A DNA stretch of 64,000 nt from Rheinheimera sp. A13L (GTDB taxonomy: Bacteria; Pseudomonadota; Gammaproteobacteria; Enterobacterales; Alteromonadaceae), in the NCBI RefSeq assembly GCF_000217935.1, contig NZ_AFHI01000012.1:124001-188000 (forward strand), written 5' to 3'. The notes below the pieces were generated by a model that was given only the letters and a program-made list of their open reading frames with translations, was not told where the DNA came from and did not search any database. Below, in pieces: positions 5,137-56,272 of this stretch. Both the position numbers and the translations under genes were made by a program. The number at the start of each line of letters is the position of its first letter. Position 1 is the first letter of the stretch.

Positions 5137-7929
5137 TCAGAACGAATTCAAAGCAGCTAATGCCACAGCTGACTGGTAGAATATTTGCGTAACAGTAGCC
5201 CACAATCCTAAGCTGTCTTTATATTCCGTATCAACAGGAACAATAATGGCATCACCCGGTTCAAGCTGAGAAGTTTTTACAGCAAACCAGCCTTTTGCAG
5301 AGGGTATGACTACTGAACCATTGGCTTTTATTACATAGATTCGGTCTTCATCGGCTCTTTTACGTAACCCACCAGCAAGATTCAGATAATCTTCGACTGT
5401 CATATTGTCTTTAAATCTGTGGCTACTGGCATGCTGAACTTCGCCAACAACTGAAACCGTATAGTCGGTACGGGGAATATAAAATAAGTCACCGTCTTCA
5501 ACAGGAATATCTGCCGAAATATCGCCAGCTAAAATAGCAGGAACATCAAGAACAAGTCGACCTATAGGAGGTTGACTTTCTAACTGATTAATCATCAACA
5601 TTGCATCTTGTGGTGATGTTTTGATGCCGTCCTCAGATAAACTTTTTGTAGCAATGTCTGCTCGTAGTTGTTCGGTCAGCTTTTTAAGTTGTAAACGCTC
5701 ACGTTCTTTTACACTTTCACGGGTATAGACTACACCTTGCATAAAAGCACTGCGGCTTAAACCACCAGCACGTTCAATCACATCCGACAACATTTCGCCA
5801 CGCTGAATCGTATAACGGCCTGGGAATTTTACTTCGCCACGAATTTCAATAGCTCGCTCAATATTCCAATCCGGAATAGGGAATATATTCAATCTGTCTC
5901 GGCTTTGTAGTGAAAAAACCTCGCTGCCACTGAAGGCTGTCTCAAGATTGACAGCTATATTTCTTACTTCTATCGAATTGCTGTTGCTGTTAATACCCTC
6001 AGCACGGGTTAGCTCAGCACGGCCTAAATAGGCTGATTCAGTCAAACCACTGGCAGCCGTTATTAAGTGTTTTAAGTTAGCACCTTCAACCAGCGGATAC
6101 TCACCAGGAACTTTAACCTCTCCGCTCACCCGAACCAATAAAGGTGAAGCTCCGTTACGGGCCTGCATTTTTAGCTTTTCGATAAGCGGGAACATTAGTT
6201 CAGTACGGTTAAAACTAGCGGACAAATTCAGCAACTCTTTATCATAATAAAGCTTTAACATAACTTGCTGCATAATATCAGGCAAAGCACTTTCGCCTAC
6301 ACTTACACCTACCACTGTCTGGTCGAACATTGCGCGTTTAGGTTGGCTATCGTACAACTGAGCATCAACGATTTTTTGGCCAGCTATAACATCGGTAGCA
6401 CCCAATGAAGCTCGACGGGCCATACGATTTTCGTTATCTTGTACTAAATTGTTAAAACCAACGCTGGATAAGTCTTCGCTGGCTGCCCAACGCATTTCAT
6501 CGCTGGTGTTATAGCGTTTTTGTACTTCCTTACGCAGGTAATCATTTAAAGCAGTTCTGTTGACTGCTTGTTCTGCATAGTTAAAAACCAACACTAAATC
6601 ACGTGGCTTTAGTTCTATATTATCAGTGCTTTGTGGCTGATTCACAGCATTAGCTAGGGCAAACTGCAATACTTTTACGTCACCGGCATCATTAGTTTCA
6701 CGTACTATCAGCGCATAGTCTAAATCTGCTGTCATATGCAGATCAGCCCAGAAGGACTTAATCAGGTCGTTTATTCTTAGTCCTTGCTGCCATGAATACT
6801 GGCCAGGACGCACTACAGCGCCAACTAAAGTAACCTGATGTTCGATACGAGGCGAGGTAGCCGATACTGTCAAGACATCACCATCACGCAAAGACATTTG
6901 CTTATTTACAGCATTGGTTAGATCGAGATTTAACAAGTTTCTTAAGTTATTACTATCAAAACGTTCTAATACTACAGATTGCGGGTAAGCACCTGCTTTA
7001 GTGCCACCAACCATAGATAATAAATTGTCTATGGTTTCGCCAGATTTGATTTCATAAATAGCAGGGCGTTTTACTTCACCAGTTGCTTGAACAGTGGCTT
7101 TTAGCGGCGCAACAAAAACTACATCACCATGCTTGAGCTGTATATCACCGCTATTATCACCGCGTAGCAATAGGTTGTATAAATCAAAATGAGCGACGGT
7201 TTCGCCGTTACGTTTGACTTGAATATCCCTCAGACTGCCGATTTCAGAAACTCCACCAGCGACATACAAAGCCTGAGTAACGTTAGTTAAAGCTGAGACG
7301 GCGAACATACCAGGTGTTCTAGCTTCACCCGCAACAAAAATATTGATGGTGCGTAACTTGCCCATAGTGACAACGGCGTCAACACCTATCATGGCTTCGC
7401 GCACTTTATTGACAATGAGATCGGAAGCCTGAACAACTGTTAAACCGTTAACATTAACCGGGCCTATTTCCGGCAAACTTACAGTACCATTACGGCTTAC
7501 TTTTAATTCTTCACTGCTGTTTTGTTTGCCAAACAATTGCAGTAAAACAATATCATCAGGGCCTAAACGGTAGTTTTCAGCAACTGGGGCATTATCTATA
7601 GGAGCAAAAGTGCTGACATCAGCATTAAACATTGACATGCCAAAACGTCCTGATGTGGCAGCAGGTGCGACAGGTAGTGCGGTTCTGACCCGTTCTTTAG
7701 TTGCTGATACCTGTTGTGGTGCCAAGACTTCGGGTTGAGCCTGCTGAGATGTTGAAGAACCAGATGAACCGGCTGGTAATTCAATGCCATATTGTTTGGC
7801 AAGACGTTGCTGCTCTGCCGGAGACAAGTTTTGGAACTGCGCTATCATTGCCGGTGAAGGCGTCACAGCAGCTACAGGTAATGCCGCAAACAATGCAGCA
7901 ATCACGGCGATTTTTACAAATTTCAGCAC
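5137..7929 (-). CDS. Outer-membrane polysaccharide export protein with six SLBB-like repeats
   Basis: This is a large (930 residues) Wza-superfamily protein. After a signal-like hydrophobic N-terminus (KIAVIAALFAALPVAA, no lipobox cysteine) and a Q/S-rich linker comes a poly-export domain (NYRLGPDDIVLLQLFG). Six segments then repeat the SLBB pattern G-E-x-x-x-P-G-x-Y...AGG, starting near FVAGEARTPGMF, QATGEVKRPAIY, TLVGAVVRPGQY, RVSGEVKVPGEY, EIRGEVKFPGRY and SVVGEVQHASSH. E. coli Wza has about 380 residues. I chose the GTG at 7929 because GGAG lies just upstream; a TTG at 7968 would add 13 residues before the signal sequence. It probably forms the export channel for the rhamnose-containing glycan. 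Confidence 0.85.
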   Translation of the reverse strand: MLKFVKIAVIAALFAALPVAAVTPSPAMIAQFQNLSPAEQQRLAKQYGIELPAGSSGSSTSQQAQPEVLAPQQVSATKERVRTALPVAPAATSGRFGMSMFNADVSTFAPIDNAPVAENYRLGPDDIVLLQLFGKQNSSEELKVSRNGTVSLPEIGPVNVNGLTVVQASDLIVNKVREAMIGVDAVVTMGKLRTINIFVAGEARTPGMFAVSALTNVTQALYVAGGVSEIGSLRDIQVKRNGETVAHFDLYNLLLRGDNSGDIQLKHGDVVFVAPLKATVQATGEVKRPAIYEIKSGETIDNLLSMVGGTKAGAYPQSVVLERFDSNNLRNLLNLDLTNAVNKQMSLRDGDVLTVSATSPRIEHQVTLVGAVVRPGQYSWQQGLRINDLIKSFWADLHMTADLDYALIVRETNDAGDVKVLQFALANAVNQPQSTDNIELKPRDLVLVFNYAEQAVNRTALNDYLRKEVQKRYNTSDEMRWAASEDLSSVGFNNLVQDNENRMARRASLGATDVIAGQKIVDAQLYDSQPKRAMFDQTVVGVSVGESALPDIMQQVMLKLYYDKELLNLSASFNRTELMFPLIEKLKMQARNGASPLLVRVSGEVKVPGEYPLVEGANLKHLITAASGLTESAYLGRAELTRAEGINSNSNSIEVRNIAVNLETAFSGSEVFSLQSRDRLNIFPIPDWNIERAIEIRGEVKFPGRYTIQRGEMLSDVIERAGGLSRSAFMQGVVYTRESVKERERLQLKKLTEQLRADIATKSLSEDGIKTSPQDAMLMINQLESQPPIGRLVLDVPAILAGDISADIPVEDGDLFYIPRTDYTVSVVGEVQHASSHRFKDNMTVEDYLNLAGGLRKRADEDRIYVIKANGSVVIPSAKGWFAVKTSQLEPGDAIIVPVDTEYKDSLGLWATVTQIFYQSAVALAALNSF

Positions 7930-8260
7930 CCTACAACTCCAGATTTTATAGTGGTTAGATACAGCCAAAAAAACTTCACCTAGTTTACCTGCTTTGGTTG
8001 TATTTCCAAGCGATAAATTGGTCTTAACATAGTGCGACGTTGTGAGTATTCAGCGTTAAATTACAAATAACCAATTTATTTATCACAATTAGCAACACGC
8101 GACTTCTGATGCAATCTTTAAAGTACATTGATTAATACAAACGGTGTAAAGCAGAGTTAAAGCAGAAAGACTTTCTGCACATCCTGATGCTACCTGTCCT
8201 TTATGGCTTTCTCAAAAAACCGGGCGCGACTTTAGCGAATTCCGTTGTTTTTGTCTATCG
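7930..8260 (-). promoter_or_regulatory. Intergenic region upstream of the export gene, with inverted repeat
   Basis: No gene is visible in these about 330 bases. The region follows the wecB terminator and must contain the promoter for the export gene. A 10-bp perfect inverted repeat, ATAAATTGGT (8013-8022) and ACCAATTTAT (8070-8079), could be an operator. A GGTAGC core resembling the RfaH ops element occurs on the minus strand near 8190, but the match is too weak to call. Confidence 0.35.
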
Positions 8261-43013: not shown

Positions 43014-43811
43014 TTAAGCTAACAGCTTTAAGGCTTGTTGTTCAGAAATACGGCCCTGGCTTATTACAGAAACAGAAGCTTGTTCACGAACACCAGCTGC
43101 TACCTGCTCTGTTACCGCTTTGGCATAATCCAGGTCCTGAATACGGCTGATGGCTTCCTGCTCGTTTACATTCTGCGTTTGCAGATTACGGGCCGTAGAC
43201 TGCAAAGCGTTAATAGTAGCGCCTAAATCAGTTCTGTTGTTGTCCACCAGTTGTGAAGAAGTCTGGATAGACTTCAACGAAGCTTCCGCACTTTCGGCAG
43301 AAGACAAATCAATACTGAAAGCACCTGAGTCAGTTAATTTAGTGGATAAATCCTGAGTTTTGATAGCAATGCTGCCATTACCTGTACCGACCGGAATAGA
43401 GCCATCCTGATCAAATAATTTGATGCCGGCAAATTCAGTGTTTTTAATTTGATCCTGAATACTGGCAGCGTAGGCGTCAGCTTGTTTTTGTAATGCCTGA
43501 CGGTCAGAAGCCGACAATATGCCATTACCAGCCTGCACTGCTAAACGACCCATTTCATTCAGGTTGTCTGTCACGCCCTGCAGACCTTGATCGGCCACAG
43601 TAGCTAAAGAAATACCATCGTACACATTCTGTGTGCCCTGAGCTGAAGCATTGGCACTTTGAGTTAAGCGGTTGGCAATTTGCAGTCCGGCAGCATCGTC
43701 AGCAGCGCTGTTGATACGACGGGCAGTGGCTAATTTTTTCAGCAGATTTTCAGATTCATTCGAATTGAATTTCAACTGATTTTCATTGGCGAAGGAGCTA
43801 CCGATTTTCAT
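43014..43811 (-). CDS. Short, divergent flagellin
   Basis: The 265-residue protein has both conserved D0/D1 flagellin ends. RINSAADDAAGLQIANRLT (canonical RINSA-x-DDAAG-x-x-IA) lies in the first 50 residues with YDGISLATVADQGLQ and NTEFAGIKLFDQDG. The C-terminus has LGATINALQSTARNLQ, DLDYAKAVTE and QGRISEQQALKLLA. The usual hypervariable D2/D3 domain is nearly absent, and the first residues (MKIGSSFANENQLKF) do not match the common start with conserved Asn/Ile/Leu. It is likely a filament or minor flagellin. It sits next to the pseudaminic-acid genes, but no FlaG/FliD/FliS follows. No clear sigma-28 or sigma-54 promoter could be read upstream. Confidence 0.85.
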   Translation of the reverse strand: MKIGSSFANENQLKFNSNESENLLKKLATARRINSAADDAAGLQIANRLTQSANASAQGTQNVYDGISLATVADQGLQGVTDNLNEMGRLAVQAGNGILSASDRQALQKQADAYAASIQDQIKNTEFAGIKLFDQDGSIPVGTGNGSIAIKTQDLSTKLTDSGAFSIDLSSAESAEASLKSIQTSSQLVDNNRTDLGATINALQSTARNLQTQNVNEQEAISRIQDLDYAKAVTEQVAAGVREQASVSVISQGRISEQQALKLLA

Positions 43812-43988: not shown

Positions 43989-46201
<2,213 letters not shown>

Positions 46202-46204
46202 CGG

Positions 46205-46900
46205 ATGCGACTGGCCATTATTCCGGCACGCGGTGGCAGTAAACGTATTCCGCGTAAAAATATTAAAGACTTTAATGGTAAGCCGATGATTGGCTGGTCT
46301 ATTGAAGCCGCATTGTTATCGGCGGCTTTTGATGAAGTCTGGGTATCCACAGATGATGCTGAAATAGCTGTTGTGGCGCAAAAATTTGGCGCCAAAGTGC
46401 CTTTTATCCGCCCTGCTGAATTATCAGACGACCACACAGGCACTTCAGCCGTGGTGCGCCACGCGATTAACCGGGCCATACAGCAGCAGTTAGAGCCCAC
46501 ATTAGTTGCCTGCATTTATGCCACTGCCCCTTTGCTTCAACCTGATATGCTGAAAGAAGCCATGCTGCAATTGCAACAGGATCCGGCTTTAGATTATGTA
46601 TTCTCTGGTTGTCGTTTTAGTTTCCCTATTCAGCGGGCTTTATATCGCTCTGAGTCAGGCAAAGTAAATGCTGTAGACCCAGCCTCTATTCCTAAACGTT
46701 CACAGGATTTGCCTGAAACTTATCATGATGCAGGTCAGTTTTATTGTGGCCGCGCTCAAAGCTGGTTGGATGCCAAACCGGTGTTTTCACCAGCTTCTTA
46801 TTTGTATGAGCTGCCACAGCATCTGGTGCAGGATATAGATACTGAAGAGGATTGGCTGCGGGCAGAGCTGTTACATCAATTGCTGTTAAAACGCCTATGA
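46205..46900 (+). CDS. pseF: Pseudaminic acid cytidylyltransferase
   Basis: PseF activates pseudaminic acid with CTP to CMP-Pse. The 231-residue CMP-sugar synthetase shows MRLAIIPARGGSKRIPRKNI, STDDAEIA, VVRHAI, and YHDAGQFYCGRAQSW near the C-terminus. It starts three bases after the pseC stop and overlaps pseG as ATGA. Confidence 0.95.
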   Translation: MRLAIIPARGGSKRIPRKNIKDFNGKPMIGWSIEAALLSAAFDEVWVSTDDAEIAVVAQKFGAKVPFIRPAELSDDHTGTSAVVRHAINRAIQQQLEPTLVACIYATAPLLQPDMLKEAMLQLQQDPALDYVFSGCRFSFPIQRALYRSESGKVNAVDPASIPKRSQDLPETYHDAGQFYCGRAQSWLDAKPVFSPASYLYELPQHLVQDIDTEEDWLRAELLHQLLLKRL

Positions 46901-47988
46901 AAGCGGCAAAAAACGCCTTGTTTCGGGTAGATGCCTCAGCCGTTATAGGGTCAGGCCATCTGATGCGTTGCCTGACCTTAGCCAAAGCATTGCAGCAATC
47001 AGGTTGGTTTATAGCTTTTGCTTGCCGCGCCCATCCGGGTAACTTAATTCAGTGGTTGCGTGATCAGAGTTTTGACGTCCTTGAATTAACAGCTCCAACT
47101 ACAAACACTCAAGCCACAGGTTATGCTGCCTGGCTTGGTGTAACAGAGCAGCAGGATGCAGCGGAGCTTATGCAGCAACTGCAAGCGCCTGTCGATTTAT
47201 TAGTCATTGATCACTACGGTTTATCCTCAGTGTTCGAACAGGCGATGACAGGCTTTTATCAAAAACTGCTGGTGATTGATGACTTAGCCAACAGGCCTCA
47301 CCACTGCGATTATTTATTGGATCAAAACCTCTATCCACAGCTGCATAGCCGCTATGAAACACAGGTCAACAAAGATGCTCTGCTGCTGTTAGGCCCTTCT
47401 TACGTGCTGCTACGTCCGGAATTTGCAATTTTTCAACGAACGGCAAAAGCCGAACAACTGCGTTTTTTGGTTTTTTACGGCGGTACAGACGAGCTTAATT
47501 TAACCCGGCTGAGCATCGAAGCGTTACAACAACTTCAGAAAACCGACTTTCATGCCGATATAGTCATAGGCCTTGCCAATCCACACAAGTTTGAGCTTGA
47601 AAAACGTTGTGCTGAAGACCGTCGTTTTACGTTGCATATTAATACGCCACAGATGGCTGAATTGATGAGTCAAGCTACTTTAATGATAGGCGCAGGTGGT
47701 TCCACCCATTGGGAGCGCTGCGCTTTGGCATTGCCAGCTTTGGTGGTAACTTTGGCGGAAAACCAGGTCGCCAGCACCTTATCTTTAGCCGATGCCGGCG
47801 CTTGTATTTATCTGGGACATGGCCAGGATTTAACAGCACAGCAATTAACACAAGCAGTGCAACAGCTGCTGGGCAATCCAGAGCAGTTGCAGCAGATGTC
47901 AAAACAAGCCAAACAACTGGTGCCACAAGGCGGCGGTTGTGCTGCTATTGTAGATTTACTCAACACAGAATTTCAGGGTCGGCATTAA
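46897..47988 (+). CDS. pseG: UDP-2,4-diacetamido-2,4,6-trideoxy-beta-L-altropyranose hydrolase
   Basis: PseG removes UDP to free the sugar for PseI. The 363-residue GT-B-like protein has FRVDASAVIGSGHLMRCLTLA at the N-terminus and MIGAGGSTHWERCALALP in the C-terminal half, the expected family motifs. I take the ATG at 46897, which overlaps the pseF stop. A TTG at 46852 would only add out-of-family residues. Confidence 0.93.
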   Translation: MKAAKNALFRVDASAVIGSGHLMRCLTLAKALQQSGWFIAFACRAHPGNLIQWLRDQSFDVLELTAPTTNTQATGYAAWLGVTEQQDAAELMQQLQAPVDLLVIDHYGLSSVFEQAMTGFYQKLLVIDDLANRPHHCDYLLDQNLYPQLHSRYETQVNKDALLLLGPSYVLLRPEFAIFQRTAKAEQLRFLVFYGGTDELNLTRLSIEALQQLQKTDFHADIVIGLANPHKFELEKRCAEDRRFTLHINTPQMAELMSQATLMIGAGGSTHWERCALALPALVVTLAENQVASTLSLADAGACIYLGHGQDLTAQQLTQAVQQLLGNPEQLQQMSKQAKQLVPQGGGCAAIVDLLNTEFQGRH

Positions 47989-48016: not shown

Positions 48017-49078
48017 ATGAGCAAAGCATTTTTGGATATTCAATTAGGCCAGCATTGGGTTGGACCTTCTCATCCGCCTTTAATTATTGCTGAGTTGTCG
48101 GGTAATCACGATCAGTCTTTGGATAAAGCGCTGGCCATGATAGATGCTGCAGCTGCGGCCGGTGCTCAGGCCGTTAAATTACAAACCTACACAGCCGACA
48201 CCATGACGCTGGATATAGATACAGGCGAGTTTTATATCGAAGATACCAACAGTCTCTGGCATGGCACTACCTTGTACAAGCTGTACCAGATTGCCTATAC
48301 ACCATGGGACTGGCATAAGGCCATTTTTGAGCGGGCCAAAAGCCACGGTATGCTTACATTCAGCACCCCTTTTGATTTAACTGCAGTGGATTTTTTAGAA
48401 TCTTTGGATGTGCCTTGTTATAAAATTGCTTCCTTTGAAAACATCGACCATCCGCTATTGGCCGCAGTGGCTAAAACCGGTAAACCTGTGATTATGTCTA
48501 CCGGCATGGCCAGTCAGTCAGAACTGGCTGAATCAGTAGAGGTGTTAAGAGCAAACGGCTGTAAAGAGCTGATTTTATTGAAATGCACCAGCAACTACCC
48601 TGCCCGTCCAGTGGATGCCAACTTGTTGACCATTCCCCATTTAGCTCAGCTGTTTCAGTGTCAGGCGGGTTTATCCGATCACACCACTGGCATTGGGGTC
48701 TCTGTTGCTGCAGTGGCTTTGGGTGCTACTGTGATTGAAAAACACTTTGTGCTCGACAGAAGCGAAGGTGGCGTGGATGCTGAGTTTTCATTAGAGCCCC
48801 ACGAGCTGAAGCAATTGGTGGAAGAAACCGCCAGAGCCAAAGTAGCCTTAGGTCAGGTTAATTATGGTTGTACTGAAAAAGAAATCGCCTCACGCAAACA
48901 CCGCCGCTCTTTGTATATTGCGGTCGATTTAAAAGCAGGTGAGGTGCTTACGACTGAAAACTTACGCGCCATCCGGCCTGGTTTGGGTTTAGCGCCTAAA
49001 TATTTGTCGATGCTACTCGGCAAAACTGTGACTAAAGATGTGGCCCGTGGCACTGCCATGAGCTGGGATTTGGTGTAA
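48017..49078 (+). CDS. pseI: Pseudaminic acid synthase
   Basis: PseI condenses the free 6-deoxy-AltdiNAc with phosphoenolpyruvate to form pseudaminic acid. The 353-residue NeuB-family protein has IIAELSGNHDQSLDKAL, AVKLQTYTADTMTL, TFSTPFD, KCTSNYPA, SDHTTGIGVSVAAVALGA, IEKHFVLDRSEGGVDAEFS, and a C-terminal SAF antifreeze-like domain (SLYIAVDLKAGEVLTTENLRAIRPG). Confidence 0.96.
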   Translation: MSKAFLDIQLGQHWVGPSHPPLIIAELSGNHDQSLDKALAMIDAAAAAGAQAVKLQTYTADTMTLDIDTGEFYIEDTNSLWHGTTLYKLYQIAYTPWDWHKAIFERAKSHGMLTFSTPFDLTAVDFLESLDVPCYKIASFENIDHPLLAAVAKTGKPVIMSTGMASQSELAESVEVLRANGCKELILLKCTSNYPARPVDANLLTIPHLAQLFQCQAGLSDHTTGIGVSVAAVALGATVIEKHFVLDRSEGGVDAEFSLEPHELKQLVEETARAKVALGQVNYGCTEKEIASRKHRRSLYIAVDLKAGEVLTTENLRAIRPGLGLAPKYLSMLLGKTVTKDVARGTAMSWDLV

Positions 49079-49110: not shown

Positions 49111-49157
49111 GGGGCGGAAAAGGGCTGGGGCAAGCCCAGCCCCTACGGTCCCGCCCG
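49111..49157. repeat. GC-rich REP-like hairpin between pseI and pseH
   Basis: A perfect 8-bp stem GGGCTGGG / CCCAGCCC (49122-49129 with 49135-49142) is nested inside an outer GGGCGG / CCGCCC pair (49112-49117 and 49151-49156). It is far more GC-rich than its surroundings and resembles widespread short intergenic palindromes. It also contains in-frame codons that could mislead start calling for the next gene. Confidence 0.7.
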
Positions 49158-49186: not shown

Positions 49187-49741
49187 ATGTGGCATAAAGA
49201 TGAAATTGCCGCCTTTAATGTAGTATTAAAACCTCTGCAGCTGAATGATTTAGAGCAACTGCGGCTGTGGCGTAACAGCCCTGAAATAAGCAGCCAGATG
49301 CTGGATCAGGCTGAAATAAGCGCAGAACAACAACAGAGCTGGTTTGAACGTATTTGCGCGGATCAACGCCAGATGCAGTTTATGATTTATTATAAAAACC
49401 AGCAGGTTGGCGCCTGTAATTTAAAAAGCCCAACGGCTTTGACTGTGACAGAATCTGAGGCTGTGGAAACAGGGTTTTATTTAGGTGAAGCCAAATACCG
49501 CGGCACTATACTGGCTTTTTTTGCAGCCTTAGCGCTGAATCAGTATGCTTTTGAACAGCTTGGTAAAAAAACGCTGCTCGCACAGGTCAAAAACACCAAT
49601 AGCGCAGCCTTACGTTTTAATGAACAATTGGGTTATCAACCCGACGCAATAAAGCCTTCAGGCGAGATGGTAGCCATGACTTTAGTGCCACAAGCACACC
49701 AGAACGCCGCCGCTAAATTTGCAACTTTTATCCGGAATTAA
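49187..49741 (+). CDS. pseH: PseH-like N-acetyltransferase (GNAT)
   Basis: PseH acetylates the 4-amino group of the PseC product. The 184-residue GNAT-like protein has VVLKPLQLNDLEQLRLWRN at the N-terminus, a variable middle, and the acetyl-CoA side ETGFYLGEAKYRGTILAFFA with KNTNSAALRFNEQLGY. I take the ATG at 49187 (AAAGGA upstream). An earlier ATG at 49088 would translate the REP-like repeat. The similarity to PseH is by pattern and position, so acetyl versus another acyl donor is open, especially beside the acyl-carrier cassette. Confidence 0.8.
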   Translation: MWHKDEIAAFNVVLKPLQLNDLEQLRLWRNSPEISSQMLDQAEISAEQQQSWFERICADQRQMQFMIYYKNQQVGACNLKSPTALTVTESEAVETGFYLGEAKYRGTILAFFAALALNQYAFEQLGKKTLLAQVKNTNSAALRFNEQLGYQPDAIKPSGEMVAMTLVPQAHQNAAAKFATFIRN

Positions 49742-49742
49742 T

Positions 49743-50000
49743 ATGAGCAACGAACTGATCCAAACCAACACCGCTAAATTAACTGCCGCTTTTGCGACAG
49801 CTTTAGTGGTAGCCGACACGCAAATCCATGATGATTTAGCTTACAACAGCATTAAAGAGTGGGATTCAACAGCCCATATGTTGCTGATTGCCGAGCTGGA
49901 AAACGTATTTAATGTGATGCTTGATACCGACGATATTATTGATATGAGTTCGGTCGCCAAAGCCAAAGAAATACTGAGTAAATACGGAGTTTCGTTCTGA
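49743..50000 (+). CDS. Acyl carrier protein of the pse-linked cassette
   Basis: This 85-residue acidic helical protein has the phosphopantetheine site WDSTAHMLLIAELEN; Ser42 is the expected attachment residue, in a DST rather than the usual DSL context. The rest (VFNVMLDTDDIIDMSSVAKAKEIL) fits the third and fourth ACP helices. It starts one base after the pseH stop and is followed by an SDR. It presumably carries the acyl group handled by the downstream ligase, LuxE-like and LuxC-like proteins; that is inference from order. Confidence 0.85.
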   Translation: MSNELIQTNTAKLTAAFATALVVADTQIHDDLAYNSIKEWDSTAHMLLIAELENVFNVMLDTDDIIDMSSVAKAKEILSKYGVSF

Positions 50001-50013
50001 TGGCTGCTTGTCA

Positions 50014-50760
50014 ATGATCAGCAAAACGCCTGTTAGTCTTATTACTGGTGCCAGTCGTGGCATAGGTCGCGCAGCAGCCCTGCATCTTGCTAAAGCGGGC
50101 CATGAGTTGATTCTAATCGCTCGGGATCTAACAGCTTTAGAACAAGTGCAGATGGAGTGCCAGGCTTTGGGCGCTTTGGTCTGTATTCATGCAGTCGATT
50201 TAACAGACCGTGACGCTGTAACTGCTTTATTTCGCCAGATACACACAGCATTACAAGATAAAGCTTTAAGTCATCTGGTGCACTGTGCAGGTCAGATGCA
50301 GGACTCGTTACTGGCTATGACTCGCCTGACTGATATGGATAAGCTACTGGCGCTGAATGTTGGCGCTACAGTGCAGTTGTGTCAGCTTGCCAGCAAATTA
50401 ATGCTGCGCCATAAAGCCGGTCACTTGCTGTTGTTATCGTCCAAAGTGGCAGAAGCAGGTTCTGCTGGTCAGGCTGTCTATGCCGCAACTAAAGGCGCGG
50501 TCTCTGCTTTAGTCAAATCTCTGGCAAAAGAATTAGGCCCAAGCGGTATTCGCGTTAATGCGGTAGCACCTGGTTTTATCGAAACTGATTTAACAGCCCA
50601 TTACAACGAAGATAAAAAACAGCAATTGATACAAAACATCAGCTTACGCCGTTTAGGTCAGGCCGAGGAAGTGGCCGCTGCCATCAGATTTTTATGCTCA
50701 ACCGACGCTCGTTATATCACTGGCCATATTCTGGCGGTGGATGGTGGTTTTAGTTTATGA
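50014..50760 (+). CDS. 3-oxoacyl-ACP reductase-like SDR
   Basis: The 248-residue classical SDR has TGASRGIGRAAALHL, HCAGQMQ (in place of NAG), LLSSKVAEAG, the catalytic YAATKGAVSALVKSLAKEL, and VNAVAPGFIETDLT and AVDGGFSL, as in FabG. It would reduce a 3-keto to a 3-hydroxy group on a carrier-bound chain. I start at the ATG at 50014; a TTG at 50008 is possible. It overlaps the next gene by four bases. A FabG copy next to an ACP suggests a dedicated hydroxyacyl precursor. Confidence 0.85.
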   Translation: MISKTPVSLITGASRGIGRAAALHLAKAGHELILIARDLTALEQVQMECQALGALVCIHAVDLTDRDAVTALFRQIHTALQDKALSHLVHCAGQMQDSLLAMTRLTDMDKLLALNVGATVQLCQLASKLMLRHKAGHLLLLSSKVAEAGSAGQAVYAATKGAVSALVKSLAKELGPSGIRVNAVAPGFIETDLTAHYNEDKKQQLIQNISLRRLGQAEEVAAAIRFLCSTDARYITGHILAVDGGFSL

Positions 50761-52151
50761 GCAGTTTTGCTGACAGATTAGAGCAGTTTGGTGAAGCTAT
50801 TGCCCTGCGTTTGCCGGATGGCACCAACATTAGCTACCTGGAATTGGCCAAAATCGTTGATCAGTATTCTGCAACACTAAACAAACTGCTGCCGGAGCAC
50901 TTTTTGCTGGCATTGCGTTTTAGTTCTACCTTATCTGCGGTCGTGGCTTATCTGGCGGCACTTCGCAGCGGTAAAGCCCTGTTATTACTGGCGCCGGATT
51001 TAAGTGATAGCCATAGCTTAGCGTTAGTCGAGCGTTTACAGATTGCGGCTGTGATCCAAAGCTCTGGTGAGATTCAACTCACTGGCCATCAGCATCTAGT
51101 CAGGCCAGACTGCGCTTTACTGCTCAGCACTTCAGGCAGTTCTGGCTCGCCCAAATCCGTGATGTTGTCACTAGAAAATATCGAAGCCAATGCCCGGGCT
51201 ATTTGTGCTTATTTGCCGATAGAGAGCACAGATACCGCCATCACTGCACTGCCTTTGCATTATTCTTATGGCTTGTCGGTGCTGAACAGTCATCTATTCA
51301 AAGGTGCTTCTATTTTACTGACTGAAGCCCCTTTGATGAGCAAAGAGTTCTGGCAGCAAACCCGGGATTTTCATATCAGCAGTCTGCATGGCGTGCCTTT
51401 TAGTTATCAGCTGTATCGCCAGTTGCGGCTGGAGCGTATGCCCCGCCCTGCTTTGCGGTATCTGACTCAGGCTGGTGGCAAACTGAACAGCAGCCTGACT
51501 GATTATGTGCAGCAACTTGCAAGCTCGCTGCAAAAACCTGTGTATCTGATGTATGGCCAAACTGAAGCCACAGCCCGTATCGCTTATTTACCACCAGAGC
51601 TTATTCAGCAGCATGCCGACTGTATTGGTGTGGCTATTCCGGAAGGTGAATTGCTACTGCGAGATCCTGTAACCAAAGCTTTGATCATCGACGATTTGCT
51701 TGAAGGCGAGCTGTGTTATCGTGGCCCTAATGTGATGTTAGGTTATGCCAATTGTGCCGACGACTTAACAAGTAGCAGTGCTTTGACTGAATTAAACACC
51801 GGCGATTTGGCTGAAAGACTGCCGAATGGTTTGTACCGTATTGTTGGGCGCTTAAGCCGTTTTCTGAAAATTCAGGGCAAAAGACTGCAACTGGATCATC
51901 TGGAACAACAACTTTGCGCTTTGGTTGACCCTGTCTGCTGCACTGGCAACGATGATTTGTTAGTAGTCGCTTACACACAACAAGAACCAGCTTTGGCAGA
52001 ACAAATACAACTGCTTTTACGCGAACAACTGCAACTGCATCCGGCTTTATACAAAGTACTGCAACTGCCCACTTTACCAAGGCTTTCCAATGGTAAAGCC
52101 GATTACCAGGCTTTGTTACAGCTTGCAATGGGGAGCCATCATGCTGGTTGA
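50757..52151 (+). CDS. AMP-dependent acyl ligase
   Basis: This 464-residue ANL-superfamily adenylating enzyme has the AMP-binding P-loop LLLSTSGSSGSPKSVMLS, then LPLHYSYGLSVLNSHL, MYGQTEATARIAYLP, ELNTGDLAERL and the hinge-like GRLSRFLKIQGKRLQLDHLE. It is somewhat short. It could charge the adjacent ACP with a carboxylic acid. The substrate cannot be read. Confidence 0.85.
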   Translation: MSSFADRLEQFGEAIALRLPDGTNISYLELAKIVDQYSATLNKLLPEHFLLALRFSSTLSAVVAYLAALRSGKALLLLAPDLSDSHSLALVERLQIAAVIQSSGEIQLTGHQHLVRPDCALLLSTSGSSGSPKSVMLSLENIEANARAICAYLPIESTDTAITALPLHYSYGLSVLNSHLFKGASILLTEAPLMSKEFWQQTRDFHISSLHGVPFSYQLYRQLRLERMPRPALRYLTQAGGKLNSSLTDYVQQLASSLQKPVYLMYGQTEATARIAYLPPELIQQHADCIGVAIPEGELLLRDPVTKALIIDDLLEGELCYRGPNVMLGYANCADDLTSSSALTELNTGDLAERLPNGLYRIVGRLSRFLKIQGKRLQLDHLEQQLCALVDPVCCTGNDDLLVVAYTQQEPALAEQIQLLLREQLQLHPALYKVLQLPTLPRLSNGKADYQALLQLAMGSHHAG

Positions 52152-53235
52152 GCGCGAGCCTTATAGCCTGAATGCGGCAGAAAAACAGCCTTTATTGCTG
52201 GCAGAACTCAATGAGCTGACAAAACATCATCAACAACATTGCCCCCCTTATCAGCAACTTGTTGCAGCGCAGTGGCCAGCTTTTGTTGCAACTGAGCAAA
52301 GCGCACAAAACACAGAACAGCTGCCTTATCTGGCGGTGCGGCTATTTAAGCAGTTAAAACTGCAATCTGTGCCGGACGCCGAAGTCTTTAAAGTGCTGTA
52401 TTCCAGCGGCACTACAGGCACTCCGTCCCGTATTGTGCTCGACAGTGCAACTGCCGCTATGCAATCAAAAATTCTGGTGAAAATCATGCAGCACTGGTTG
52501 GGTAAAGCCCGTTTGCCGATGCTGATTATTGATCATCCTGGCGTGATTAAAGACCGCAGCAACTTTTCTGCCCGTGGTGCCGGTATTCAGGGTTTATCTT
52601 TTATGGGCCGCAATCATTGTTATGCACTGAATGACGATATGAGCATTAATTTTGAAGCTGTCGAGCAGTTTTGCCAGCAGTTTGGCGATGGCCCTGTCTT
52701 TGTATTTGGTTTTACCTTTATGGTCTGGCAGTTTTTTATTCAAGAGCTGCAAAAGCAGAACAAAACTATTTCGTTGCCACAGGCTTTGTTACTGCATAGC
52801 GGTGGCTGGAAAAAACTGCAGGACCAAGCCGTCGACAATGCCACTTTTAAGCAGCAGGTACTGACTCAAACCGGCATCAGCAAAGTGCATAACTTTTATG
52901 GCATGGTAGAGCAAGTGGGCGCTATTTTTGTCGAATGTGAACAAGGCCATCTGCACTGCCCCAGTTACGCTGATGTAGTAGTTCGTACGCCGGGCAGTTG
53001 GCACACAGCGGATGTCGGAGAAGAAGGGGTATTGCAGCTGTTATCTACGTTGCCGCGCAGTTATCCTGGCCATAGCTTATTGTCAGAAGACCGTGCCGTG
53101 CTTTTAGGCGAAGATAACTGCCTTTGTGGCCGTATGGGCAAATATTTCCATATTTTAGGCCGTTTGCCTGCGGCTGAAGCTCGGGGCTGTAGTGATACGT
53201 TTTCTCCGGCAGCAAAAGAGGGAACCACTCCATGA
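52141..53235 (+). CDS. LuxE-like acyl-protein synthetase
   Basis: This 364-residue LuxE-domain protein has the adenylate-forming motif VLYSSGTTGTPSRIVLDS, then FGFTFMVWQFFIQEL, HNFYGMVEQVGAIF, and a C-terminal EARGCSDTF with a cysteine at about residue 350. LuxE of luminous bacteria is acylated on a cysteine near its C-terminus. I start at 52141 (GGGAG upstream); an in-frame start at 52090 lies within the ligase gene. It overlaps the ligase by 11 bases and luxC-like by four. No luxAB or luxD is present. Confidence 0.88.
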   Translation: MLVEREPYSLNAAEKQPLLLAELNELTKHHQQHCPPYQQLVAAQWPAFVATEQSAQNTEQLPYLAVRLFKQLKLQSVPDAEVFKVLYSSGTTGTPSRIVLDSATAAMQSKILVKIMQHWLGKARLPMLIIDHPGVIKDRSNFSARGAGIQGLSFMGRNHCYALNDDMSINFEAVEQFCQQFGDGPVFVFGFTFMVWQFFIQELQKQNKTISLPQALLLHSGGWKKLQDQAVDNATFKQQVLTQTGISKVHNFYGMVEQVGAIFVECEQGHLHCPSYADVVVRTPGSWHTADVGEEGVLQLLSTLPRSYPGHSLLSEDRAVLLGEDNCLCGRMGKYFHILGRLPAAEARGCSDTFSPAAKEGTTP

Positions 53236-54407
53236 GCTGGACCATTTTAAACCCACCCTCAACTAAAACAGAACTGCAGCAGTCTTTTGCAGAGCAGGAT
53301 TTTGCCTATTGTCAGGCCTTATCCGAAGCTTTATTAAAAGCCCCTCAAAGCCGGGATTTTCCGGATCTAATAGCTTTAGGTTTCTGGTTACGTCAGGCCA
53401 ATTTAAAGCCTTTACTTGCGCCTTATCAGCAGGGCCCCTTTATCCGTCAACCCTTAGGTTTGGTGTTTCATAGTGCGCCTGCCAATGTCGACAGTTTATT
53501 TGTTTATTCCGGCATTTTAAGTTTGCTCTGTGGCAATAAAAACGTGATTCGTTTATCCAGCCGCAGCGGTGGCAGCACAGCGATATTGATTGAAAAAATC
53601 CGTAGTCTGGCAGCACAATTTCCGCAGCAAAATGCCCGCTTTCAACTGGTACAGTGCGACTACAACAGCCCTGAATTAAAAAGCCTGATTAACACAGTGG
53701 ATGGCCGGGTATTGTGGGGCTCCGATCAGGCAATCCAGGCGCAGCGCCAGTTAGTGATGCCTGCCCATGCCCGCGAACTAAGTTTTGGCCATAAGTTTTC
53801 CTTGTGTTTAGTAGGCGCAGAGCAAGTGCTTGCTGCCGATGACACAGAGTTCCAGCAGCTGGTCCAACTGTTTTACCGCGACCAGCTGACCTTTGCCCAG
53901 CAAGGCTGCTCTTCGGCCAAAGCCGTTCTATGGTTGGGTGACGCAGCACAAGTACAACAAGCGCAGCAACGGTTTTGGCCCGCCTTAACAGAGCTTATTC
54001 AGCAGAAGCAGCCACTGAATGCCAGTGAGCAGTATCAGGCCTTAGCCACAGCGCAGCAGTTGATTATGAGCAGTGAACAACAGCTGATGCTGACTCAGCA
54101 GCAGAGTATTTCCCGTGTGGCAGTTAGCTCGTTAGAGCCCGCATTTATCCAGCAGCATCAAGGCTGTGGTTTATTTCTGGAATTACAGCTTGAAGATCTT
54201 CAGCAATTAAATCCGATGCTGACTCAGGCGCATCAGACCTTAACAGTGTGGGGTGTTGATTCAACAGCGTTAAAAAGCTGGCTGACGAGCGTGTATACAG
54301 GTCTTGATCGGGTAATGCCAGTTGGACAAGCGCTTAGCTTTAGCCCGGATTGGGATGGCGTGAATTTGATAGAGCAGTTTAGCCGTAAGGTGACCTGTAC
54401 TTTTTAA
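53232..54407 (+). CDS. LuxC-like acyl-CoA/acyl-protein reductase
   Basis: This 391-residue aldehyde-dehydrogenase-type reductase of the LuxC family has LVFHSAPANVDSLFVYSG (NADPH side), GNKNVIRLSSRSGGS, ELSFGHKFSLCLVG, and the nucleophile in QQGCSSAKAVLWLGD. It would reduce an activated acyl group to an aldehyde. It is paired with the LuxE-like protein as in fatty-acid reductase complexes. Its stop codon shares TTAA (54404-54407) with the stop of the convergent glycerophosphotransferase gene. Confidence 0.88.
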   Translation: MSWTILNPPSTKTELQQSFAEQDFAYCQALSEALLKAPQSRDFPDLIALGFWLRQANLKPLLAPYQQGPFIRQPLGLVFHSAPANVDSLFVYSGILSLLCGNKNVIRLSSRSGGSTAILIEKIRSLAAQFPQQNARFQLVQCDYNSPELKSLINTVDGRVLWGSDQAIQAQRQLVMPAHARELSFGHKFSLCLVGAEQVLAADDTEFQQLVQLFYRDQLTFAQQGCSSAKAVLWLGDAAQVQQAQQRFWPALTELIQQKQPLNASEQYQALATAQQLIMSSEQQLMLTQQQSISRVAVSSLEPAFIQQHQGCGLFLELQLEDLQQLNPMLTQAHQTLTVWGVDSTALKSWLTSVYTGLDRVMPVGQALSFSPDWDGVNLIEQFSRKVTCTF

Positions 54408-55816
54408 GGCTGCAATTTAAGTTGTTCTAAATAAGCAATAAGAGCAGGACAACAGCTTGTACTCACCATATCGAACTTTTGCTGTAAAGCCTGTCTTTTT
54501 AAGGCAAAACGGTCAGTTTCTAAATCCAACGCCATCTGCTCTAACAACTGTGCAAAAGTCTCTGCTGTCCTGCCTGCAATAAAATCTTCTTTGGCTATCG
54601 CAAACTGGCCCCGTACTTTGGCGTACTGCTCTATGTCATACATAAAATGCAATACAGGCTTATTACAGAGTAAAAAGTCGAAAGCCACAGACGAATAATC
54701 GGTGATCAATAAATCAGCATCTGCCAGCCAGGGATAGACATTAAAACGCCCTGGATAATGGAAAATCCGGTCACAACCTTCTTGCTGACGCAGTTCATCA
54801 AAAGGTGCCAGAAAAGGATGAGTTTTCATCACAAAGACGGCGTTATGCTCAACAAGAAACTGCTGCAGTTCAGGCCAGTTGATCGGATGATCATTCTGGC
54901 CATTGTCGCGGTAGGTTGGCATAAAAACGATGAGTTTTTTACCAGCGCGAAGCTGCTGTAATTGCTCCTGACTTAAGCTATTGTGCCAGCAGCGATCAAG
55001 AGGAGCCTGTAGTAAAGCATCGTTACGTGGATAGCCAAAATCCAGATAATGTTTGGCTTTAAACATCTTTGGAAAAACGTGCAGATTAAACCAACTGGAG
55101 CTGGAGACAAAAGCTTCATCCAGAATATGGGCAAAGTGCTTGTTGCCAGCCAGATGTTTAAAAGGTAAACCATGCCACAGCTGCACAACTTTGGCCTGAG
55201 TTCGGATACGGTTGAACAGAGGGTCGGTGGATTCATGATCCAACACCAGCACTTTGGCTCTTTGTAGCAACCAGCAAACCTGCAATGGTTTGTCAATTTG
55301 CGCCGGATGAAAACACCGCTGCGCATCTTTTACCACTAAATATACGTCCTGATGTCGCTTTTGATGCGCATCAAAAGCGACCAGCACATTACTGTCGACG
55401 TACTTTTCAGCGTAATAAACCACGTGGCCTTTAGGCAGCAGATCCTGCAATGACAAAAAACAGTCGTGAATAATAACCTTAAGCTTCTGCCACACTGAGC
55501 CCGCTTTATAGGGCTCAAACTGGAATGGATTTAGAGTTTTGCAACACCAGATTTTTTTTGCCACAAAGCCATTTTGCAACATACCTTCAGCAATTTTCTG
55601 TTGAAAATCACTAGGGGCAATCAGCACAGCATCATAAGCTTTGCTCTGTGAAGCATGATTACACACATCAGGCCCCTGCTTCAGGTTATCCACTATACCG
55701 AGCACAATCGCGCCCTGCTGTTGCAGCAAAAGCGCAAGGTTCCTGCCAGCAGGATTATCCGGTGCTATATAGAGGCGTTGTCCTTGCCAGTCTTTGGCTT
55801 CACGCGGCGCAGACAT
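54404..55816 (-). CDS. CDP-glycerol glycerophosphotransferase family protein
   Basis: This 470-residue protein has a Rossmann-like N-terminal part (about residues 1-95: YIAPDNPAGRNLALLLQQQG) and a TagB/TagF-type catalytic domain: VVQLWHGLPFKHLAG, DFGYPRNDALL, VFMPTYRDNGQND, FVMKTHPFL, LLITDYSSVAFDFLLCNKP and the following FMYDIEQY. The family transfers glycerol- or ribitol-phosphate from the CDP form. Together with the next upstream gene (glycerol-3-phosphate cytidylyltransferase), it suggests glycerol phosphate is added to a glycan. In Gram-positives this builds teichoic acid; here the acceptor is unknown. Confidence 0.85.
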   Translation of the reverse strand: MSAPREAKDWQGQRLYIAPDNPAGRNLALLLQQQGAIVLGIVDNLKQGPDVCNHASQSKAYDAVLIAPSDFQQKIAEGMLQNGFVAKKIWCCKTLNPFQFEPYKAGSVWQKLKVIIHDCFLSLQDLLPKGHVVYYAEKYVDSNVLVAFDAHQKRHQDVYLVVKDAQRCFHPAQIDKPLQVCWLLQRAKVLVLDHESTDPLFNRIRTQAKVVQLWHGLPFKHLAGNKHFAHILDEAFVSSSSWFNLHVFPKMFKAKHYLDFGYPRNDALLQAPLDRCWHNSLSQEQLQQLRAGKKLIVFMPTYRDNGQNDHPINWPELQQFLVEHNAVFVMKTHPFLAPFDELRQQEGCDRIFHYPGRFNVYPWLADADLLITDYSSVAFDFLLCNKPVLHFMYDIEQYAKVRGQFAIAKEDFIAGRTAETFAQLLEQMALDLETDRFALKRQALQQKFDMVSTSCCPALIAYLEQLKLQP

Positions 55817-55855
55817 AAGACTCTGAATGATGAACAGATTTGATGGCTGGCATGT

Positions 55856-56272
55856 TTAGTCCAGGAAATCCCGTTTGAGTTGCATAAACACCTGAATAGC
55901 TTTTTTCAAATCAGTGGAAGACACATTATCAGTGCGGGGCAAATACACCACTTCACAATGCGGTTTTAAGAAATCAAACTTGCCCTGCCAGTCCGAGCCC
56001 ATCACAAAAATATCCACTTTGTGCTGCTGCACATCGCTGATTTTTTGATCCCAGTTCGACTCTGCTATCACCTCATCAACATAACGCACACTACGCACCA
56101 GTTCTACCCTGTGCTCAAAAGGCATCAAAGTGGTTTTTCCTTTGGTGGCATTAAACTCGTCGGTAGAGACAGCCACAATCAGCTTGTCACCCAACTCCCG
56201 CGCCCGTTTCAGCAAATTCAGATGACCAATATGAAACAGGTCAAAGGTGCCGTATGTTAATACTGTTTTCAC
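55856..56272 (-). CDS. tagD: Glycerol-3-phosphate cytidylyltransferase
   Basis: TagD makes CDP-glycerol from CTP and glycerol-3-phosphate. The 138-residue nucleotidyltransferase has YGTFDLFHIGHLNLLKRARE (HxGH motif), STDEFNATKGKTT, FEHRVELVRS and LPRTDNVSSTDLKK (RTxxxSTT-like). The length is normal. It supplies substrate for the adjacent glycerophosphotransferase. I use the tagD symbol by homology. Confidence 0.92.
   Translation of the reverse strand: MKTVLTYGTFDLFHIGHLNLLKRARELGDKLIVAVSTDEFNATKGKTTLMPFEHRVELVRSVRYVDEVIAESNWDQKISDVQQHKVDIFVMGSDWQGKFDFLKPHCEVVYLPRTDNVSSTDLKKAIQVFMQLKRDFLD

Follow-up and report, generated by a model that had tools for sequence, protein, structure and literature searches.

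A portable LuxE/LuxC-containing gene cassette proposed to supply a short hydroxyacyl group to pseudaminic acid in Rheinheimera sp. A13L

In Rheinheimera sp. A13L, a stretch of 64,000 nucleotides (NCBI RefSeq contig NZ_AFHI01000012.1, forward strand, positions 124,001 to 188,000; hereafter the window, numbered from its first letter) within a 4.5 Mb genome carries a set of pseudaminic acid (Pse) genes followed by genes for an acyl carrier protein (ACP), a FabG-like short-chain dehydrogenase/reductase (SDR), a ligase forming adenosine monophosphate (AMP), a LuxE-like acyl-protein synthetase and a LuxC-like acyl reductase. The reading put forward here, to which we give a probability of about 0.6, is that these five genes (the cassette) form a portable pathway that provides a short hydroxyacyl group for Pse by way of a divergent PseH, and that they do not serve fatty acids or light. 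The locus lies between flagellar genes, among them a flagellin, and further flagellar genes past the end of the window.

In the proposed route, LuxE would activate a single carboxylate of a small diacid, most probably a four-carbon one such as malate (malate itself being a guess), and hand the activated acid to LuxC, which would reduce it to an aldehyde; the SDR would reduce the aldehyde to a primary alcohol, and the ligase would adenylate the resulting hydroxy acid and load it on the ACP. The divergent PseH would then transfer the acyl group from acyl-ACP, and not from acetyl-coenzyme A (acetyl-CoA), to the 4-amine of UDP-4-amino-4,6-dideoxy-L-AltNAc (UDP, uridine diphosphate; AltNAc, N-acetylaltrosamine). 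PseG, PseI and PseF would lead on to cytidine monophosphate (CMP)-Pse with an N7 dihydroxybutyryl group (3-deoxytetronyl-like, C4H6O3), which Maf would attach to flagellin as a residue of 376.148 Da. It is in this form that we infer the substrate, the order of steps, the identity of the acyl group, the ACP donor and the N7 position for Rheinheimera sp. A13L.

With gene starts taken as the ATG codons read from the sequence, seven genes run head to tail on the forward strand: pseI, encoding pseudaminic acid synthase and last of pseBCFGI (48017..49078; TIGR03586, 502 bits against a cut-off of 340), pseH (49187..49741), the gene for an ACP of 85 amino acids (aa; 49743..50000), and the genes for the SDR (50014..50760), the ligase (50757..52151), LuxE (52141..53235) and LuxC (53232..54407). 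From pseH to luxC the joints are, in order, 1 base, 13 bases, a 4-base overlap, an 11-base overlap and a 4-base overlap; between pseI and pseH lie 108 bases, holding a dispersed short repeat, and because of this gap the link to the pse genes is less tight than the remaining joints. An earlier reading of this DNA from its letters alone (the sequence-only reading) had described six genes after pseI, head to tail with overlaps or short gaps, and the open reading frames (ORFs) and families bear out both order and strand. It had also linked these genes to the pse genes and a nearby flagellin, to which a Maf-family gene, FliD and flagellins past the window end can now be added, and had noted the lack of luxA, luxB and luxD; none was seen by eye among the window ORFs, no family search aimed at them having been made.

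Pfam recognises the GNAT domain of PseH (E-value 4.7e-16), the SDR (PF13561/PF00106, 4e-55), the ligase (AMP-binding PF00501, 8.7e-38), LuxE (PF04443, 1.3e-43) and LuxC (PF05893, 8.6e-28). The ACP has no Pfam or NCBIfam match in the family searches of the window proteins; the call draws on its size, an Asp-Ser site invariant in 78 of 78 rows and a profile match to the ACP of locus L157, which itself matches PF00550 (L and G numbers are our handles for loci and genomes). Judged by its sequence, the cassette is CATALYTICALLY intact, the catalytic residues of all five enzymes being kept across loci: the Ser-Tyr-Lys of the SDR in 73 of 73 aligned rows, Lys447 of the ligase in 78 of 79 (its other motif residues in 77-79 of 79), the C-terminal Cys of LuxE in 81 of 81 and Cys226 of LuxC in 79 of 79. 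The two Cys residues align with Cys362 of luminescence LuxE and Cys285 of luminescence LuxC. From these kept residues, and from what is known of the families, the acid would be expected to be activated, to form a thioester and to be reduced first to an aldehyde and then once more.

Neither LuxE nor LuxC of the window reaches the cut-off of the corresponding luminescence model (47.5 of 550 bits for NF052244 and 27.9 of 750 bits for NF052251). The cassette LuxE has three further conserved Cys that are common to LuxE:LuxC fusion proteins (see below) and absent from three luminescence LuxE rows, and in a LuxE tree it is parted from those three proteins by a deep branch (support 100/100), with the fusion lying between. 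This tree took every second pse-linked row (29) together with the window protein, and its group beside other sugar genes includes loci cut off by a contig end before a pse gene could appear; in the lux operon used as reference (L160), luciferase-like and acyl-transferase genes were confirmed by family. A remnant of a luminescence operon was rejected in view of the deep separate branch and of scores so far under the luminescence cut-offs.

The five genes travel together. Named genomes were scanned with an alignment of LuxE; of the relatives found, at least 583 in number, the best 80 were kept (a choice that favours query-like sequences, with several loci shared with the same-genus genomes described below, for example L046 = G016 and L055 = G018); after 13 loci with contig ends had been set aside, 67 untruncated loci were counted. 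Within 9 kb of LuxE, the ligase, ACP and LuxC are each present in 67 of 67 and the SDR in 64 of 67, in the order ACP-SDR-ligase-LuxE-LuxC in 47 and with ACP and SDR swapped in 9. The sequence-only reading had allowed that a survey might find the cassette usually unlinked to pse genes, and the survey found linkage: PseI lies in the examined flanks of 55 of these 67 best loci (with a NeuB-like gene in one more, L118), and among 394 sampled genomes of the order, our own included, 29 of 54 LuxE proteins (E<1e-20) have a PseI over cut-off within 10 kb. As the chance expectation is about 0.005 per pair, a fortuitous neighbourhood of cassette and pse genes was rejected.

Several loci depart from the usual layout. 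Ligase and LuxE share one stop-free stretch in L110, and in G023 and G394 the open frames that contain LuxE, 880 and 939 aa in length, could accommodate such a fusion too; L092 was dropped as a further case, a single stretch holding both having been shown for L110 only. LuxE and LuxC form one protein in L161 as well as in L157, L158, L179, L180 and L181. In L122 luxE and luxC are separated by a GNAT gene, and L123 has two LuxE-LuxC pairs. Genes for iron-type alcohol dehydrogenases (Fe-ADH) lie near six cassettes and were rejected as replacements of the SDR, since only L094 among these lacks an SDR and there a phosphonate-type gene adjoins. This gene (L094:11334-12632), for a phosphoenolpyruvate (PEP) mutase with a cytidylyltransferase, speaks of phosphonate chemistry in the neighbouring glycan genes; L042 has what by eye is its look-alike (6819-8117), likewise near a cassette with an Fe-ADH gene. 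Similarity searches of Escherichia coli genomes gave no match to the cassette, and plasmid searches gave only distant LuxE/LuxC relatives (Rhizobium, Priestia, Pantoea, Salmonella and others), the Rhizobium matches listed having about 41-44% identity to the window LuxE.

A change in PseH is coupled to the cassette. The window PseH scores 73.3 bits with TIGR03585, under the cut-off of 93.1, and among the matches listed only 1 of 24 PseH proteins within 12 kb of LuxE reaches this cut-off, versus 27 of 29 beside PseI without LuxE, the latter figure being biased upward as low scorers are missing from those matches. In a tree of 72 PseH sequences, a branch (99/99) separates the 54 of cassette type from 18 others; even within Aeromonas, it keeps 8 cassette rows apart from 8 rows without a LuxE match (L185-L192). 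The cassette set was defined by a score above 120 against a profile made from proteins of this type, six lower-scoring linked rows being added later; the comparison set had 20 rows, L198 (a fragment only) was dropped from the trees, and L193 was counted with the cassette group, the cassette of that genome (G003) lying 63 kb away.

The change includes the loop that would hold the pyrophosphate of CoA, for which excerpts of PMC4964394 give the consensus Gln/Arg-x-x-Gly-x-Gly/Ala. A hydrophobic stretch replaces this P-loop in 50 of 53 cassette rows and in 1 of 20 others, that one being from G003, where the cassette is elsewhere; a plain G-x-G occurs in 4 of 53 cassette rows (Marinomonas), there past the loop. 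The same replacement is seen when the window PseH is aligned pairwise with that of Helicobacter pylori. The altered loop suggests that PseH draws its acyl group not from acetyl-CoA but from another donor, for which the acyl-ACP of the cassette would be the simplest candidate.

The identity of the acyl group can be approached through Aeromonas, for which the published data cited here come from portions of the papers concerned. In the island of A. piscicola AH-3, orf1-orf5 follow pseH, and a Pse derivative of 376.14 Da was reported, which was kept in an fgi-1 mutant that had lost the remaining glycan (PMC7874193); the lateral flagellin carries the 376 Da sugar alone (PMC4284686). A mono-N-acetyl Pse core with C4H6O3 amounts to a computed 376.148 Da, so that the predicted residue matches the value given for AH-3, and of the four additions of C, H and O that fall within 0.025 Da of 376.14, C4H6O3 is the only chemically sensible one. 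The 102 Da end group of the AH-3 glycan also has the nominal mass of C4H6O3, with which the heptasaccharide sums to 1491.49, compared with 1491.5 in the excerpted report. Plain Pse5Ac7Ac (Pse with acetyl groups on N5 and N7) is reported for A. caviae Sch3 (PMC9290775).

Within the genus, 22 genomes (our own and 21 others) were compared. Cassette-type PseH is found in 13 (our own, G003, G005, G006, G008, G009, G012, G013, G015, G016, G018, G020 and G021), 12 of which have LuxE or LuxC. In G001 and G002 a pse operon occupies the same site beside flagellin with a canonical PseH bearing a Gly-Ser-Gly loop, and genome searches found no LuxE or LuxC of the cassette kind. Downstream of their canonical pseH (L206, L207) come an ORF that resembles a ligase, though a very divergent one, and an SDR, which are perhaps an acyl route free of LuxE and LuxC. 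In G004 and G014 PseI is followed by other genes, and in G007 a weak PseH-like domain is joined to PseG. The parts of the cassette appear to act in trans in two genomes: at the pse locus of G003, LuxE and LuxC are absent and, as judged by eye, no more than short remnants separate pseH from a full-length ligase gene, the full cassette being that at 63 kb, and in G015 the cassette at pse lacks the ligase, with an ACP-ligase pair about 57 kb away and a PglD-type gene a few kb on from the pair. Such an arrangement fits a free hydroxy acid made by LuxE, LuxC and SDR and then loaded by ligase and ACP.

The cassette is also found beside other sugar N-acyltransferases. Three of 14 relatives with strong LuxC (L033, L035, L044) have it in a stretch without a pse cluster, and in the two whose ORFs were read (L033, L044) it follows a hexapeptide/PglD-type acyltransferase near a DegT-type aminotransferase, L044 having RmlA/RmlB-type genes nearby as well. 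In 59 of the 67 untruncated loci the cassette has an acyltransferase gene of PseH or PglD type no more than 2.5 kb away. The placement beside PglD-type enzymes without pse genes therefore suggests that the cassette product is what an amino-sugar N-acyltransferase needs.

LuxE and LuxC further occur in clusters (L182-L184, L161, L163, L164) with varying sets of a NeuB-like synthase, an ACP, a protein like ketoacyl-ACP synthase (KAS) III and, both by eye, a thiamine diphosphate (ThDP)-type enzyme and a dehydratase-like protein. These are a possible second sugar-acid pathway linked to LuxE/LuxC. In Shewanella oneidensis, according to parts of PMC3765264, SO_3261 (NeuB domain) and SO_3262 (thiamine pyrophosphate enzyme) are required for modification of flagellin with a group that, in its outer part, is apparently free of nitrogen.

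A number of observations weigh against the hydroxyacyl reading. Three of the 67 loci (L073, L094, L096) have no SDR, and in 8 no PseH- or PglD-type gene was recognised within 2.5 kb. Six low-scoring cassette-linked GNATs (L079, L092, L099, L120, L121, L122) are not members of the cassette PseH clade, so that this clade is not the whole story; in G020 a cassette-type PseH was found with no LuxE or LuxC, on a contig that ends inside pseH. A plain G-x-G is present in only 10 of the 20 comparison rows, and the loop of H. pylori PseH is itself described as atypical in the excerpted PMC4964394. The mass match concerns one strain and two decimals, and the C2H4O2 by which it exceeds Pse5Ac7Ac can be written otherwise. 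The 403 Da sugar of A. hydrophila AH-1 (PMC4691044, in part) is unexplained by a hydroxyacyl group, and that AH-1 and Sch3 have no cassette is implied only by the group definitions in the parts of the Aeromonas paper used. The analogy with Vibrio cholerae taken up below draws on a single paper, in excerpt, together with general background.

Other products of the cassette have to be weighed against a dihydroxybutyryl group. A fatty acyl chain, made or modified by the cassette and leaving a lipid on the flagellar glycan (a 'liposugar'), is what the names of the enzymes (FabG, fatty-acid ligase, LuxE, LuxC) bring to mind and what statements in parts of PMC7874193 and PMC4875605 propose, but it is quite unlikely: family searches found no chain-elongating enzyme in the cassette, LuxE and LuxC lie far below the long-chain family cut-offs by the scores given above, and in the sole cassette strain whose linking sugar has been measured, this sugar is 60 Da heavier than Pse5Ac7Ac and has no long chain. 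The SDR could instead be a true beta-ketoacyl-ACP reductase; the cassette would then make a different short group, such as 3- or 4-hydroxybutyryl or that of some other hydroxy acid, and the 376 Da sugar of AH-3 would have a separate origin. The best NCBIfam match of the SDR is indeed 3-oxoacyl-ACP reductase, though at 221.9 bits below the cut-off of 297.75, and hydroxybutyryl groups are known on nonulosonic acids; however, a hydroxybutyryl residue would have a computed mass of 360.153 Da and not 376.14, LuxE and LuxC would be left without a role unless succinate were the start, and an alcohol dehydrogenase is present in five fusion loci (L157, L158, L179, L180, L181), all of which makes this rather improbable.

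The boldest alternative, raised by the sequence-only reading, is that LuxC stops at the aldehyde and that the sugar carries this aldehyde or an imine or acetal derived from it. The intact catalytic Cys of LuxE and LuxC and the three loci devoid of SDR would allow it, but an SDR lies within 9 kb in the other 64, a free aldehyde close to amines would be expected to react, and 376.14 Da fits the alcohol form, the aldehyde form being 374.13 (the value of the isomeric succinyl group, computed as 374.133 Da). An aldehyde end product is thus disfavoured and seems to us very improbable. That the aldehyde is an intermediate, reduced by the SDR, is argued by the five fusion loci, in which an Fe-ADH gene sits between the ligase and the LuxE:LuxC fusion and there is no SDR. 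The carrier-bound hydroxyacyl group for Pse that the same reading had suggested is supported; its attachment of an aldehyde to the sugar is not.

If the hydroxyacyl reading is followed further, cassette-type PseH may be a distinct family using hydroxyacyl-ACP in place of acetyl-CoA, the module may define N7-dihydroxybutyryl Pse on the flagella of many gammaproteobacterial families, and a swap of the N-acyltransferase (PseH or PglD type) may retarget the acyl group to other amino sugars; this wider picture is held tentatively, at somewhat less than an even chance. A gene set labelled 'fatty acid / liposugar' by two surveys would gain a testable chemical prediction, the 376 Da linking sugar of AH-3, perhaps also its 102 Da end group, would be offered an identity, and a donor switch from CoA to ACP would be proposed for a sugar N-acyltransferase. 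If true, genome sequence alone would predict a dihydroxybutyryl-Pse flagellar sugar in many aquatic bacteria. The gene set itself is already in print, and it is the mechanism and the PseH switch that are new proposals: searches of the open-licence literature found nothing on dihydroxybutyryl-pseudaminic acid, no paper among the matches listed around tetronate, perosamine, luxC/LuxE and N-acyltransferases that joins the two, and no hydroxyacyl/PseH reading of the cassette.

Around the cassette, pseB, pseC, pseF and pseG (44052..47988, forward; ORFs with PF02719, PF01041 and PF02348) form the upstream part of the gene run that ends in pseI, PseG scoring 287 bits with TIGR03590 (cut-off 153.6). 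Divergent to this run is a flagellin gene (43014..43811, reverse; PF00669, PF00700), the local target of glycosylation or one of several. Beyond the window end lie the Maf-family gene (MptE/Maf, PF01973; only 53.5 of 670 bits with the NCBIfam model for PseD), FliD, which was checked by family, and a further four flagellins, of which one was checked by family and three were read by eye. The gap between pseI and pseH contains (49127-49148) a short GC-rich palindrome-like element, of which the genome has 18 copies when at most 3 mismatches are allowed; the reversed control has none. Converging on luxC is a gene like those for cytidine diphosphate (CDP)-glycerol phosphotransferases (54404-55816, reverse), with a glycerol-3-phosphate cytidylyltransferase gene beyond it (55856-56272, reverse; 178 bits against a cut-off of 165); by its sequence this pair (54404-56272) suggests phosphoglycerol on the flagellar glycan.

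Among the known systems, the acetyl-CoA-dependent PseH of Helicobacter and Campylobacter (PMC4964394, in part) shares with the window PseH the GNAT family and the position in the pathway, but the window protein differs in its sub-cut-off score, in its pyrophosphate loop and in a clade apart from canonical PseH rows. The fatty-acid reductase of luminescence (luxCDE) has homologous LuxE and LuxC with the same catalytic Cys, its LuxE differing in the deep separate branch and the missing extra Cys described above.

Closest in gene content are the flagellin islands of Aeromonas and Enterobacteriaceae. The gene set is in print for 98 Aeromonas strains (PMC7874193), as the sequence-only reading had stated for luxC/luxE-like genes, and, counted for each gene, for 71-80 Enterobacteriaceae strains (PMC4875605), read in the excerpts of both as fatty acid or liposugar; in those of PMC7874193 the mechanism extends to a fatty acid or aldehyde and a liposugar and nothing beyond. 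Aeromonas Group II islands (orf1-3-luxE-luxC in the same excerpts) have the same five families after pseH in a flagellar context, orf1 being the ACP gene, orf2 the SDR gene and orf3 the ligase gene, and in the window, too, ACP, SDR, ligase, luxE and luxC stand beside pseH and near flagellin and maf. However, in the Aeromonas loci examined pseI and pseG (and pseF where present) run opposite to pseH and the cassette, whereas in the window all run in one direction, and where Group II has fgi-1, a family 2 glycosyltransferase (GT-2) gene, directly after luxC, the window has the convergent CDP-glycerol phosphotransferase-like gene. As fgi-1 is missing from this place, the window locus is not called Group II proper.

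The mechanism finds its nearest counterpart in the tetronate genes of V. cholerae O1, a set that we take to comprise the WbeL ligase, an ACP, an alcohol dehydrogenase and LuxE/LuxC-like members, and for which Morona (Gene, 1995) reportedly gave roles gene by gene. Each role in this tetronate-type list has a candidate gene in the window, the SDR standing in for the Fe-ADH. The five fusion loci, taken as kin of this system, have a ligase of 472-479 aa, an Fe-ADH of 374-375 aa and a LuxE:LuxC fusion of 825-827 aa, whereas the window has separate luxE and luxC genes and an SDR. Four of them belong to family f21 (taken for Vibrionaceae) and L158 to family f9, an ACP is listed in L157 and L158, and in most of the five the surrounding cluster has NeuB-, NeuD- and CMP-transferase-like genes; in the LuxE tree such RfbN-like fusions form a sister branch. 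The V. cholerae genes (VC0248-VC0252, wbe/rfb; WbeL of 471 aa, the role of wbeL being predicted) are described in excerpts of PMC3441752 as a five-gene set making a hydroxyacyl group for N-acylation of an amino sugar, as proposed here, and they offer a homology-based precedent beside which the statement of the sequence-only reading that an aldehyde-using reaction is undescribed was too strong. In V. cholerae O1 the sugar is perosamine in lipopolysaccharide; here it would be Pse on flagellin.

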